This document shows positions 40,909 to 64,000 of a DNA stretch of 64,000 nucleotides, piece after piece. The stretch covers positions 98,692 to 162,691 of the forward strand of contig JAQGBZ010000125.1 of assembly GCA_034687125.1 (NCBI GenBank), read 5' to 3'. The stretch comes from Neelides folsomi. Lineage: Eukaryota; Arthropoda; Collembola; Neelipleona; Neelidae. A model generated the notes under the pieces. That model was not told the DNA's origin and searched no databases. It saw nothing but the letters and a program-made list of their open reading frames with translations. Numbering within the stretch: the stretch's first letter is position 1; each line of letters starts with the position of its first letter. The translations under genes were made by a program, and so were the position numbers.

Positions 40909-43293
40909 ATGGATAATGAAAATAAAGATACTGTAACTGAAGTGGAGAAACCTGAACCAGTAACTCCAGTCGCTCCAGCTCCAGTGAGGACCCCGACATC
41001 GGCTAGGTCAAATGCTAGGAAACGATCGCTCACTCCTACCCAGAGAGCATTGAGAGAAAAGGTATTTTATTTAGACGTCTAAATATATTCCTCATTAAAA
41101 TATATCTTATATTGATATTTATTATTTAAGATTTTCAAAAAATTTCTAAAATTAATGTTTTTATATTGAAATTTTAGGCTATTTTTTAATACAATGTTGA
41201 ATGAGTTATTATTTTTATCATTTCAGATTATCTGATTTATGAAATTCCTTTTGAATTATAGGAACAAGCAGAGAAGCGGTTGAAGCTTGAAGAAGAAAAA
41301 CAAGAGCGATTAAACCGAAAAGAACAAGAACGGCTCCAAAGGGAAGAAAAGCGGATTAAACTCGAAGAGGAAAAGAAAAAGCGGGCTGAAGAGAAAAAGG
41401 CCAAAGATGAGGAAAGGGCCAAGAAGGCCGAAGAAGATCGGATAAAAAAGGAAGAAGAGAAGACAAAGAGGGAAGAAGAGCGGGCCAAGAAAGAGGAAGA
41501 GAAAGCGAAGAAGGAGGAAGAAAGAATTAAGAAAGATGAAGAAAAACGGAAGGACAAGGAGCGGAAAGAAGAGGAAAAAAGACTCAAAGATGAAGAACGA
41601 GCTTTGAAGAAGAAACGAAGAGAAGAAGAAGAAGAGCGAGAAAAGTTGGAAGCTGAAAAGAAATTAAAAGCTCTTCAACCCATCACTAAATTCTTTGTTC
41701 AGAAAGGAACTCCGCCCCCAACAACTGCCATTAGGCCGAGTCGTCGTTCGTTGGCAAGTTCCGTCGAAGGGACGGAAAATGAACCGATTGTAATTGAATC
41801 TGAAAGTCCATTGAAGGACGAGGAAGTTTTACCCTTTGACCCTATGCCTTTTGAGGTGAAGAATGAAATGGCTTTGGCTCCGATTGTCCGACGACAGATG
41901 ACTGACGAAGATAAGTTGAAATTAGACCAAGAGATCGAGAATGGAAGTTCAAGCTTTCTTCAAATGATTAAAAGTGGCGGGCGGAGGGGGAAAAAGACCG
42001 ATGTGGTTTATTCATCTGATGATCCCGATGTGGATGTGATCAAGCAAAAGGATTTGCTACAAATGCCCCAAGGGCAAGGGGTGACCAAATGGAGGATGAA
42101 ACTCATTCAATTTCACGAAAATCGTCGACCAGCTTATTGGGGAACTTGGAAAAGACCAGCAGAGGAAGTTAAAGCAAGAAAGCCTCTGTTTAAGCATAAG
42201 GTATTTTATTTATTTTTGGCCATTTAATCCCTATCCAATCCATCTAAAGAATATCCGAGTGATACAATCCACCGATATTAAAATGATTCGGATTGTATTT
42301 AGGTATGTTCGTTAATGCCTAATTACCTAAAAAGTGGTCTTGATGGAGAAAATTGACCTTATGGCCTTGTATGATTCTCGGTTATTTACCTCGAATATAA
42401 TATTACTCATGCAATTATTCAACGTCTTCAGCTAAAGAGTAAACACCAGTTACCTACCTATAATTGGTTTGTTTATTCAAAATAACTTTTTTATCTTCAC
42501 TTCACTTCATTACATAAAAACAACTAAATAACCATTTGTAAAATTAAGTTCTTTTGGCACTACTTACTAAATATGAAAGAAAAGTAATTGATGTATTTAT
42601 CCTGGTTCAATTTACGACGGAAAGGCCACCCAATCAATCCTATCTAATATTTCACTTGGAATGGATCATCCATGCGGAACCTTAATTGTTATATTTTTTA
42701 TTTAATTGGCCTTAAATTATTTCCAACATTTTTAAGATAATGGTATTTTGAGGATAAAATATGAATGAAAAGTTAATATGTTAAATTAATTGTTAAATGA
42801 CTTAAGGAATTGGACTACGAAATTGACTCTGATGATGAGTGGGAGGAAGAGCCAGAAGACGGCGAAGATCTCGGAGACGACGAGAAGGATGAGGAAGACA
42901 AAGAAGAGTTGGATGAGGATGAGGAAGATGATGGGTGGATGGTGCCCCACGGATATTTGTCCGATGATGAGGTCGGAGAGGAAGTACGGATGGATAAGGA
43001 TGAATTGAAAGCCAGCGAAAAGGAGTTTTATGAAAATCGCAAGAAAAAACTCAAGGTAAAACTCAAGAATCCATATTGATACCTACCATTACATTATAAC
43101 CAATTACTTAATTTTATGTAAATACTTATGTTATCAATTACTATTTAATTTTTTGAATTTATAGTTTGGCTATCCGAAAATTATTGTGAACCTGGGTGAA
43201 TTTCAATTTGGACCAAGTTTGCTTTTCCCAGGAGCTTTTGAAGAAAATGTCACTCCACCACAGTCGCCAATTCCGATAACTAATGAATCATAA
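40909..43293 (+). CDS. Chromatin assembly factor 1 large subunit (CHAF1A/p150-like)
   Basis: Four exons (40909-41061, 41262-42200, 42807-43055, 43165-43293) join in frame to 489 residues. CAF-1 deposits new H3-H4 on replicating DNA through PCNA. In order: a short basic N-terminus; a long Lys/Glu/Arg-rich helix (about 55-185, the KER region that binds DNA); a PCNA-binding motif of the CAF-1 type, ITKFFVQKG (about 192-200); the conserved MKLIQFHENRRPAYWGTW (about 332-349); the acidic ED domain that binds histones, with DSDDEWEEEPEDGEDL (about 371-386); and PHGYLSDDEVG. At 489 residues it is about half the human length. The N-terminal PCNA/HP1 region is absent and the C-terminal winged-helix part is short, though missed exons are possible. 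Confidence 0.92.
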
Positions 43294-60080: not shown

Positions 60081-63000
60081 TTAATGACTATTGTGGGGCC
60101 TAGGTGGTTTAAGGCCATCCTGGTGACCAGGTGGTTTCGGACCATCGTGATGTCCAGGTGGTTCAGGGCCTTCATTGTGACCAGGTGGTTTTGAACCATC
60201 ATGTCCAGGTGGTTTTGAACTATCATATCCAGGTGGTTTAGGACCTTCGTGATGACCAGGTGGTTTAGGACCTTCGTGATGTCCAGGTGGTTTAGGGCCT
60301 TGATGGTGAGGTGGATTTAGACCATCGTGATGTCCTGGTGGTTTAGGGCCTTCAGGTTGACCAGGTGGTTTCGGACCATCGTGATGTCCAGGTAGATTTG
60401 GACTTACGTTTTGTTCCGGATGTTTGGGACCTTCATGACGAGGTTTATTTCTAGATGGATTAATATGACTTGTATGTCTTGGACCTTTCGGATGTCCATT
60501 TCCGGATCCCCGATGATTTTGAACATTATTTTCTGTTAGCAAAAACTTATGTGGATAACTCAATGTTCTTTCTTTTTCCATCTCGCGCCAAAAACATATA
60601 ATTTTCATTAATAATGTGGCATCTCTTCCTGTCCTCAATCCTCTAAAGGTGGATCTTCTTGTAATTCCGCCTACAATTTTCCTGAGTAAATGAAGATAAT
60701 TTCTGTCCAAATATATTTGTATGTTCATGCCATCAGTCATTGGATTAAATGGATATCCTGCATCTTCCCAACAATTACATTTACCAATTGTTTCACACGT
60801 GCCTCTTTCTTTATTAAAATACGTATTTGTCGGACAAACAAAGACGGATCGTTTCCCGCCATTGCAAGAGAAATAATATCGAGGATCCTTAGTTGGTAAT
60901 TTCCCATCTGTTGCACAGTTTCGCTCCCATGGAACAGAATCCTCTGGGCATTCGAGCCCCTGAGCAGTAACATGAAGATTTTCATTGATTCGATGGCCAC
61001 TCCACATATAATTTTCACCTTTGTCAGCTCCAATAAATTGATGATAATAAGCAGCCACACAAAAACCAAAGTAATTGCTGAAATATAGCTCGCCGGGACA
61101 TTGATATAATATTTGAATATACGCATCGTGTTCTTCCTCTCCTTCGTTTTCATCGCTCTTGCTTCCACTTTCTTCTGATTCTCCACTTTTGTCGATCCCC
61201 AAAGGATGTTTGAGATTTTTGCAAATGTAATAAAATCTGTAATCCGGAGTTGGGAAAATTCCTGCTGAAGCGCAATGAGCAATGTCAAAATTACAACTTT
61301 GAACAATCTGCCCGAATACTACTTTGGGGTTATTAATCACGTTATTTGGTCCAATTGATCGTTTGGCTATTATGCTTTTTTGGTTTTCTATTGTACTTTG
61401 TCCAAAATTTTGATTGAAATTCGAATCTCCCGCCAGGTTGAAACCAAATCTGTAACTAGATCCTTCTAATATAAATTCATGTAGATATACGGGAACACAA
61501 TGCCCGGCTTTAGCGCTGTAATAAAATCCGGAATGGCATATGAATAGATTAACGTTCAACTGGCCTGATTTCGCTTTTTCATTAACATAGTAAAAGCGAA
61601 GGTCAATACATGGGAATTTGCCAATTTTATCAGAAACTGGCACATGGAATGGCACGGATGAAATTGGCACGGAGAATCCACTTCTAGTATCCATTTTTTC
61701 TGATATTGCCCAATGAATTCTAATTCCATTCCACGAATTTGAAAACTAGAATATTTAATTATTTTTATTATTTGATGTATTAATATCGAAAATTAAATCA
61801 AAATATTTATAATAAAATGAAAATACGATTTTTTAAAAAATCTTTCTAAAATAATAATTGTACCTGTCTTCCTGAAAAGAATCTTGGCTGAGTACATGTG
61901 CCATATACTTGATTGAAAAACAGTCCACTCGGACATTGATAAAGTTGTCTTGTCATAAACATTTCTCCATCAATTTTTTCACATGCATAATAAAATCTGA
62001 AATCCGGATATGAAAATAGTCCAGGCGATGAACATTCTGCTAAAATGTACGCAGGAGACGCATGTGAAACCCAAACTCCCATGTTTTGTAAAACGGGATA
62101 TTGTTTCCTATTTTGACTAATTATGTATCCCGAAACGCATTGTAGTTCATTATAGCAGAAGTAATATCCATACGGGCATTGATATAAAATTCCTAAAAAT
62201 TTTTGGAATATGTAAAATTTATATTGTATTTTATAAATCTAGTTATGTATGTATATTAAATAGGATGAAAAACCTCTTTGATTTGGATTATCGCATGATA
62301 AATAATAACGTCCATCGTTTCCAAAAGGTTGAAATCCTTTGTTCATGCACATGTTTGGAATCCCATGGAAAATATTATCATTCACATATGCTGGAACTCC
62401 ATTAGCAAATTTGGGAGAAGAAATTCCCGGTCCAAACCTGCCGCCCAATTTTTTCTGAATAATATTTCCTGCTGATACATGAACACACAAACGAGCATAA
62501 ATGCTGAAAATATAATTTTTCCCACAGGAATAGAAAACTGGGATCATAGGGCCATTAAGTGATCTCGCACAATGATAGTAGACGCTTATGTCTTCGGTTG
62601 GGAAAAATCCCTGTCCATGGCATATATTTGTAAATAGGATAATATTCGTTGGCCTATTTACGAGCATTACCCCTCCGTAAAACAATTCTTCATTTTGAGC
62701 TATTTTAATTGATCTCCAATCATTGAAAAATGTTTCACCAATGAAATCAAATTCTTGATATGAAAATGATGAAATATCGAACATCATTGAATTAAAATAT
62801 TGTTCAAAATTTTCATATAGATTCATAGATTGATAACTGCTACTAATTAATCCTGAAAATAAATAAATACTTATAAATTAATCAATTTAATAAATATTTC
62901 TTATAGTTTCTTTAAATGATTATAATAATTAATTAGCAATTCATTTTAAATTGAAAATTATATAATAACACATGCTCTTACCATTATATGCCGACATTGC

Positions 63001-64000
63001 TTGGTTAGCCATTGCGTTTTGGTGACTAGCAGCACCACTAGATGCTGCACGAGTTATCATTTGATTATTTGAAACTCCCATTCCCTGATTGGACGAGGAA
63101 GCCATGGCGTATCCCATACTTGCAGCTTTAGTAAAATACCAGTTAAATGTATTATGTAAATACAGCTAAATATTTACCTTGGCCAGCAGACATTGCTTGA
63201 TTTGCCATCGCACTCTGTTGGCTAGCTGCGGCACTCGATGATGCGCCAGACATGGTTTGAGTTTTTGATGCGGCCATTGCCTGATTAGCTGACGACGCAA
63301 TGGTAGTCCCTATGCTAGCATCTACAAAATTGATTATTTAGCAATGGAATATTTTAATTTTTGAGTAATTTGAAATGGTTTCATACCGTGATTTGTCGAC
63401 ATTGCTTGATTAGCCAATGCGTTTTGTTGACTATCAGCCTCACTAGAAGCTGAACCAAACATTATTTGGTTATTTGAAACTCCCATTCCCTGATTGGACG
63501 AGGAAGCCATGGCGAATCCCATACTTGCAGCTTTAGTAAAATACCAGTTAAATGTATTATGTAAATACAGCTAAATATTTACCTTGGCCAGCAGACATTG
63601 CTTGATTTGCCATCGCACTCTGTTTGCTAGCTGAGACGCTCGATACTTCCCCAGACAAGGTTTGAGATTTTGATGCGGCCATTGCCTGATTAGCTGAGGA
63701 TGCAATGGTAGCCCCCACGCTAGCACCTTCATAATTGATAAATTAGCACTGGAAAACTTCAAAATTTGAAGGATTTGAAATGGTTTCTTACCGTGATTTG
63801 CCGACATTGCTTGGTTAGCCATTGCGTTTTGGTGACTAGCAGCACCACTAGATGCTGCACGAGTTATCATTTGATTATTTGAAACTCCAATTCCCTGATT
63901 GGACGAGGAAGCCATGGCGTATTCCATACTTGCAGCTTTAGTAAAATACCAGTTAAGTGTATTATATAATTACAGCTAAATATTTACCTTGGCCAGCAGA
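60081..64000 (-). CDS. Secreted modular protein: Ala/Ser repeats, six cysteine modules, Pro/Gly/His tail (5' end beyond window)
   Basis: Exons, in order of transcription: 64000-63988 (partial), 63935-63792, 63726-63583, 63530-63387, 63321-63178, 63125-62982, 62852-62274, 62192-61864, 61745-60081. All phases fit. The N-terminal part seen is five and a fraction 48-residue Ala/Ser/Met/Asn/Gln-rich repeats, one per 144-bp exon. Six cysteine modules follow, of the form C-x-x-x-G-x-F-x-x-x-D-x-R-x-Y-Y-x-C ... YQCP...F...C, for example PDFRFYYAC with LYQCPSGLFF and PDYRFYYIC with LYQCPGELYF. They resemble peritrophin-type chitin-binding (CBM14) domains but diverge. One module has FYYVN in place of FYYxC. 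The C-terminal 110 residues are about twelve copies of GPKPPGHHE-like units. A cuticle, peritrophic or adhesive secretion is likely. The chitin role is inferred. Confidence 0.8.
60100..60430 (-). repeat. 27-bp minisatellite coding for Pro/Gly/His repeats
   Basis: About twelve imperfect 27-bp units within the last exon, each encoding a variant of GPKPPGHHE. Unit length stays mostly a multiple of three, so the frame is kept to the stop at 60081. Confidence 0.85.
62982..64000 (-). repeat. 405-bp tandem repeat, each unit carrying two 144-bp exons
   Basis: Exon type A starts at 62982, 63387 and 63792, and type B at 63178, 63583 and 63988, so the unit is exactly 405 bp. It includes a 52-bp intron and a 65-bp intron whose sequences are also nearly identical between copies. 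At least 2.5 copies are present and the array continues past the window. All exons are 144 bp with phase 1 at both ends, so any number of units keeps the frame. Confidence 0.93.

Follow-up and report, generated by a model that had tools for sequence, protein, structure and literature searches.

A half-homogenised array of paired exons and introns in a putative chitin-associated protein gene of Neelides folsomi

Could the introns of a tandemly amplified pair of exons be homogenised unequally, one kind being kept alike and the other left to diverge? Exchange among repeat units is regarded as the way in which the repeat proteins of silk and of comparable materials evolve. It has also been proposed that repetitive introns direct such exchange (PMC9779670). 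The question is raised by a window of 64,000 nucleotides, which is the whole stretch of DNA analysed here, from the collembolan Neelides folsomi (assembly GCA_034687125.1, positions 98,692 to 162,691 of contig JAQGBZ010000125.1, called C125 below). The window ends where the contig, 162,691 bp long, also ends, and in its last kilobase an array of two alternating exons, A and B, is found on the minus strand, with an intron AB after each A exon and an intron BA after each B exon. We consider it probable that a single multi-domain gene, probably for a secreted protein, has this array as its central part; an old duplication giving A and B would have been followed by amplification of the pair and by exchange centred on the BA intron, and the product would be associated with chitin and carry the array as a spacer.

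A tandem repeat with a period of 405 bp was identified at 62989-64000 by Tandem Repeats Finder (TRF), with 2.5 copies, 88% matches and 0% indels. Read on the minus strand, the unit consists of exon A (144 nt), intron AB (65 nt), exon B (144 nt) and intron BA (52 nt). Complete copies of three A exons and of two B exons lie between 62982 and 64000, all five bounded by AG and GT and in phase 1-1, and the introns of the array have GT–AG borders. The original prediction, which had described a 405-bp unit with two 144-bp exons of symmetric phase, is borne out on both points. Since the exons are in phase 1-1, any exon or pair of exons can be gained or lost in frame; retention of a single intron (52 or 65 nt) would shift the frame.

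The A and B exons are themselves related. In an ungapped comparison, A1 and B1 agree at 96 of 144 bases, compared with a mean of 41.9 (standard deviation 5.8, maximum 65) in 20,000 codon shuffles, and the six A-B pairs agree at 90-96 of 144 bases (62-67%). The A exons are 86.8-96.5% identical to one another, and B1 and B2 are 88.9% identical. Because copies of the same exon are more alike than A is to B, the duplication that gave rise to A and B predates the amplification of the pair, as had been proposed from the first reading of the sequence, in which one 48-residue exon duplicated first. The six A-B pairs differ at 8-11 of the 12-15 comparable fourfold sites and at 10-14 of the 48 second codon positions; 23-27 codons per pair encode the same residue, and a different codon is used in 13-15 of them. 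Such heavy change at silent sites with a conserved peptide argues for coding exons as well as for an old A/B split. No Pfam family was found for the A1 or the B1 peptide, no solved structure was matched by the A/B profile at E <= 1, and the search of phages with the array peptide gave no match.

The two kinds of intron have behaved differently. The four BA copies differ, pair by pair, at 0 or 3 of 52 sites (94–100% identical), while the two AB copies differ at 14 of 65 sites (Fisher's test, BA versus AB, p = 0.0002). The introns had been called nearly identical throughout, which applies to BA and not to AB; that is, only BA is more alike than the rest of the unit, as would be expected of iterated homogenised introns. 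It had also been suggested that intron and exon divergence be compared between units. Of the 405 sites, 48 are different between the two complete units, U3 and U2, distributed as 18/144 in A, 14/65 in AB, 16/144 in B and 0/52 in BA. Their longest identical run, with the unit taken as circular, is 106 bp long; it starts 42 nt before the end of B, passes through the BA intron and stops 12 nt into A. A run of this length was matched in 0 of 20,000 permutations. A wider block of 154 bp, which starts at the same point in B and reaches nucleotide 60 of A, contains 3 differences, and the remaining 251 bp contain 45. Within the exons, the contrast between the first 60 and the last 84 nt of A is seen for A1-A2 (Fisher's test, p = 0.0003) and A2-A3 (p = 0.02) and not for A1-A3 (p = 1.0), and that between the first 102 and the last 42 nt of B for B1-B2 (p = 0.003), these p values being descriptive because the split points 60 and 102 were picked post hoc; the permutation test is independent of them.

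The copies also group in conflicting ways. The BA introns form two identical pairs, 3 sites apart, namely BA1 with BA2, and BA3 with BA0, a copy on a second contig, C244, described below. The grouping of the A exons is a different one, with only 5 differences in 144 sites between A1 and A3, compared with 19 between A2 and A1 and 18 between A2 and A3. At 16 sites A1 and A3 share a base that A2 lacks, and when B is taken as the outgroup, it has the A2 base at 5 of them, the A1/A3 base at 7 and neither at 3, and the B copies disagree at 1. The 5 sites look like derived changes common to A1 and A3, which are not neighbours. Thus neighbouring units share introns and alternate units share part of an exon, a pattern which fits gene conversion or unequal crossing over, but not readily a simple series of duplications. 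The conflict (A1 and A3 against A2, and BA1 and BA2 against BA3 and BA0) suggests exchange between the units, as judged from few sites. We infer that exchange is the cause of the divergence pattern. The homogeneity is limited to the BA intron and the flanking half-exons, and the units are therefore mosaics. Consequently, recent expansion or gene conversion, as put forward in the original prediction, holds in so far as the units seem to have exchanged sequence, but they are not uniformly recent copies.

Where does the array continue beyond the end of C125? Apart from the array, a DNA search of the genome with it (3 matches) found a single further place, at the start of C244, where 161 bases are 96% identical. 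Read in the same direction, C244 contains 56 nt of an A exon (A0), the intron BA0 and a hybrid B exon (B0), the 3' end of which is that of a B exon (Table 1), with the rest being largely different sequence rich in N, G, R and Q. B0 appears to form the array's 5' boundary. The ends of C125 and C244 overlap by 121 bp with 3 mismatches, all of them protein-changing, which could represent two units or two alleles. These ends are most simply read as parts of a single gene, the two contigs of which would be linked, and also separated, by the array. An assembly gap interrupts the array, because C125 ends in it and C244 begins in it. Five complete exons are found in the assembled array, together with the truncated A0, the hybrid B0 and 13 nt that belong to a B exon. 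The number of A exons is at least three.

The coordinates of the array and of the other parts of the putative gene are listed in Table 1. The predicted protein opens with a hydrophobic start, after which the CBM14-like exon and the N/G/Q-rich part lead up to the A/B array. By eye, about six CBM14-like domains come after the array, one of which is shared by exons 12 and 13, and a Pro/Gly/His tail completes the protein. The two contigs encode 346 and 1,097 predicted residues, and the whole protein would have about 1,424 residues if A0 equals A3. About 860 of these at least ~1,424 residues follow the array, in the CBM14-like domains, linkers and tail. Exon 3 encodes RERR close to its beginning, a motif that resembles a furin-type cleavage site.

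Table 1. Positions of the array and of the other parts of the putative gene, from the 5' to the 3' end (window positions unless C244 is named)
Feature	Position	Strand	Length	Basis or remark
ATG exon, hydrophobic start	C244		57 nt	modelled; signal-like peptide judged by eye
Exon 2	C244		44 nt	modelled
Exon 3, CBM14-like by eye	C244 1693-2052	-	360 nt	modelled
Exon 4, N/G/Q-rich	C244		296 nt	modelled
Exon 5, 5' of hybrid B0	C244		45 nt	modelled
Hybrid exon B0	C244 109-288	-	180 nt	last 43 nt equal B1 (42 for B2)
Final part of one more B exon, or else of B0, truncated at contig end	63988-64000	-	13 nt	
Intron BA3	63936-63987	-	52 nt	identical to BA0 (C244); 3 differences from BA1/BA2
Exon A3, phase 1-1	63792-63935	-	144 nt	5/144 differences from A1
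Intron AB3	63727-63791	-	65 nt	compared with AB2
Exon B2, phase 1-1	63583-63726	-	144 nt	splice borders, frame
Intron BA2	63531-63582	-	52 nt	identical to BA1
Exon A2, 3' part diverged from A1/A3	63387-63530	-	144 nt	19/144 from A1, 18/144 from A3
Intron AB2	63322-63386	-	65 nt	14/65 differences from AB3
Exon B1, phase 1-1	63178-63321	-	144 nt	splice borders, frame
Intron BA1	63126-63177	-	52 nt	identical to BA2
Exon A1, last array exon, phase 1-1	62982-63125	-	144 nt	AG/GT borders, open in phase
Exon 12, one CBM14-like domain and first half of a second	62274-62852	-		borders by eye, phase 1 in; CBM_14 E 0.039, 14.5 bits, below cut-off
Exon 13, second half of one CBM14-like domain and a full one	61864-62192	-		CBM_14 E 1.6e-05, 25.4 bits, over cut-off
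Exon 14, three CBM14-like domains, Pro/Gly/His-rich tail, stop codon	60081-61745	-		CBM_14 E 1e-06, 29.2 bits
Tail repeat, about GPKPPGHHE (9 residues), C-terminus	60102-60393	-	27 bp per repeat	TRF, 11.1 copies; translation

The assignment of the domains was examined with the Pfam family CBM_14 (PF01607, cut-off 22.1 bits). Two of the four scanned exons (3, 12, 13 and 14) are over the cut-off, namely 14 and 13, and in the scan of the whole of exon 14 one of its three CBM14-like domains was matched. When the five unsplit domains after the array were extracted, 3 of 5 matched CBM_14 at E <= 0.1. In their alignment G, D, Y and two cysteines are invariant, and two more cysteine columns are occupied in 4 of 5. 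The canonical CBM14 pattern has six conserved cysteines and is not reproduced here; the five extracted sequences contain 4, 5, 6, 4 and 3 cysteines. The last cysteine of the pattern is perhaps kept in one copy only. Judged from the alignment, both cysteines of one disulphide may have disappeared together. In the PDB, part of exon 14 gave three weak matches, one of which is a chitinase (E 0.19), and the five-domain profile gave five weak matches, none of them significant, comprising three chitinases (E 0.096-0.14) and two entries of Endonuclease 8-like 3 (E 0.19-0.20). Chitin binding by the C-terminal domains is predicted.

Could the A/B repeats instead be the main material of a silk-like or adhesive secreted fibre protein, with the CBM14-like domains as accessories? 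Such a product would fit the composition of the five array exons, where A, S, Q, M, N and G account for 197 of 240 residues (A 24.6%, S 21.2%, Q 10.0%, M 9.6%, N 9.2%, G 7.5%). In addition, iterated near-identical introns are known in the spider genes Flag and MaSp2 of Argiope (PMC1885213, PMC9779670), and the true copy number could be large, as the array breaks the assembly. However, the assembled array is short (five full exons and partial pieces), and a silk or glue, though possible, is not favoured because some 860 of the ~1,424 residues predicted belong to the CBM14-like domains, the linkers and the tail, all of which follow the array. Spidroin models are included in Pfam, and no silk family was met in the four exons scanned; for the last exon, the scan at E <= 1 gave no spidroin C-terminal domain, but only CBM_14 and a sub-threshold EGF_2. 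We therefore regard a silk or adhesive fibre as unlikely, and the evidence speaks more for a protein of the extracellular matrix that is attached to chitin. The fibrous or adhesive secretion suggested by the original prediction agrees with the secreted look of the protein (by eye) and its low-complexity repeats, but most of the remaining gene is a CBM14-like chain. The protein is predicted to be secreted into a chitin-bearing matrix, with the A/B segment as a spacer of changeable length.

A second explanation would replace exchange between units by selection on the BA intron, for example on a splicing or regulatory element, giving one conserved and one diverged intron per unit. The BA block is indeed the most conserved part among the available copies. 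However, the identical run extends over synonymous sites in the flanking half-exons, and A uses codons other than those of B for an almost identical 3' peptide, so that the codons of B are not fixed by the protein. Moreover, the BA copies do differ, at 3 sites, in paired groups (1 with 2, 3 with 0). There is thus little probability that selection on BA accounts for the pattern. It is very improbable that the assembly repeated, or chimerically joined, one true unit: the array lies at a contig end and C125 and C244 overlap by 121 bp with 3 mismatches, but the two complete units differ far more than expected from sequencing error (48/405) and the exon frames remain open, and it is the assembled unit count that may well be wrong.

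Several observations weigh against the interpretation as one chitin-associated gene shaped by exchange. The exons are recognised from the sequence only, by splice-site and frame consistency and by codon conservation between A and B. The frame is open through the exons modelled on C125 and on C244. Splice sites outside the array, however, were selected by eye in the knowledge of the frame, which makes the agreement partly built in, and two of the donors are weak (GTTTTA, GTTTTT). The link between C125 and C244 is one that we infer, and the intron comparison is small, with two AB and four BA copies. The recent copies show no sign of purifying selection, although the numbers are small: A3 and A2 differ at 1 of 18 fourfold sites and 5 of 48 second positions, and B2 and B1 at 3 of 22 and 4 of 48. 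As for the domains, exon 3 has no Pfam match, and the usual second cysteine is absent in all five aligned CBM14-like domains (60081-62852). Finally, AlphaFold2 on the A/B alignment predicted a helix at residues 14-45 with a confidence too low for the model to be relied on (mean predicted local distance difference test, pLDDT, 60; predicted template modelling score, pTM, 0.26), and the spacer role is thus without structural support.

On balance, the following history would be the most probable. A 48-codon exon of phase 1-1 would have been duplicated long ago to give A and B, the peptide being kept by selection. Later, the pair, A-intron-B-intron, would have multiplied in tandem, for which unequal crossing over is the simplest mechanism, with the frame kept at each gain or loss. 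Ongoing exchange, by conversion or crossing over, would act mainly on the block around BA, that is, the 3' part of B, the intron and the 5' part of A, while the AB half of the unit would drift. The product may be a chitin-associated extracellular protein of the cuticle, the peritrophic lining or an egg covering, in which the A/S/Q/N/M-rich repeats would serve as a flexible or fibrous spacer, variable in length, between chitin-binding modules.

The genome was also searched for related sequences. In the assembly (75.1 Mb, 840 contigs), no copies of the array were found beyond C125 and C244, either by DNA (3 matches) or by protein search (E up to 1, 6 matches). Nor was another copy found for exon 13, exons 4-6 or exon 3, save a weak match of exon 13 to exon 14 of the same gene (E 0.0037); the searches for copies covered the exons other than 1, 2, 12 and 14. 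CBM_14 domains are common in this animal, with at least 46 places at E <= 0.001. One of the CBM_14 matches, in a 548-residue frame on contig C116, was rejected as a relative, being without A/B repeats by eye. Another, at 78050-78208 on the minus strand of C241, lies within an open frame of 2,661 residues, possibly a giant chitin-binding protein. Elsewhere, two overlapping 21-bp tandem repeats at 41430-41546 of the window are E/K-rich if translated; the insect odorant receptor family has 3 weak matches in the genome (best E 8e-8); and contig C742 (15,157 bp) is apparently a near-complete mitochondrial genome, with tRNA-Leu(UAA) between COX1 and COX2, a gene order that we take to be of the ancestral pancrustacean type.

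How does this gene compare with known ones? Concerted evolution of intragenic repeats is reportedly found, to judge by the titles of papers, in the genes for Tenascin-X and Coccidioides SOWgp, proteins unrelated by name. The closest parallel is offered by MaSp2.1a and MaSp2.2a of Argiope, which likewise have a tandem unit of two exons and two introns with alternating intron types (PMC9779670). According to the passages of that study, the introns are homogenised within the gene, with an average similarity of 97.6% (range 94.3-99.7%), unequal crossing over is proposed, and the authors were unaware of another eukaryotic gene with two alternating homogenised introns (PMC9779670). Unlike MaSp2, the present gene has a CBM14-like chain, belongs to another lineage, pancrustacean by its mitochondrial gene order, has one homogenised intron type and, so far, few copies. 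The spider Flag gene is similar in its iterated exons with near-identical successive introns, read as intragenic homogenisation; Flag is a silk protein, and alternating intron types are not described in the passages of that source (PMC1885213). Human tropoelastin, an extracellular matrix protein, shares the alternation of two kinds of domains (hydrophobic and cross-linking) and the phase 1 borders (PMC3458006), whereas here it is two paralogous exons of the same length, A and B, that alternate. With the arthropod CBM14 or peritrophin-A proteins the PF01607 matches are shared, but here the usual second cysteine is absent and an amplified exon array is present. Among the top-listed titles and abstract openings from searches of the open-licence literature, no report was found of this protein or of an alternating-intron repeat gene outside Argiope, which is a weak indication of absence.

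The gene therefore resembles known repeat genes with iterated introns, and its half-homogenised unit is unusual. Tentatively, and with somewhat less than an even chance, it may be the second known kind of gene with alternating two-exon and two-intron units, found outside spiders, with exchange focused on one intron and a chitin-tethered repeat protein as its product. If so, homogenised and freely drifting half-units would lie side by side in one gene, the length of which could change without loss of frame. The case also shows that a contig break can fall inside a gene. In a small genome, long reads would make copy number and tract borders countable, and a compact, apparently non-silk gene in which each unit pairs a homogenised intron with a drifting one would allow intron-directed exchange to be tested.

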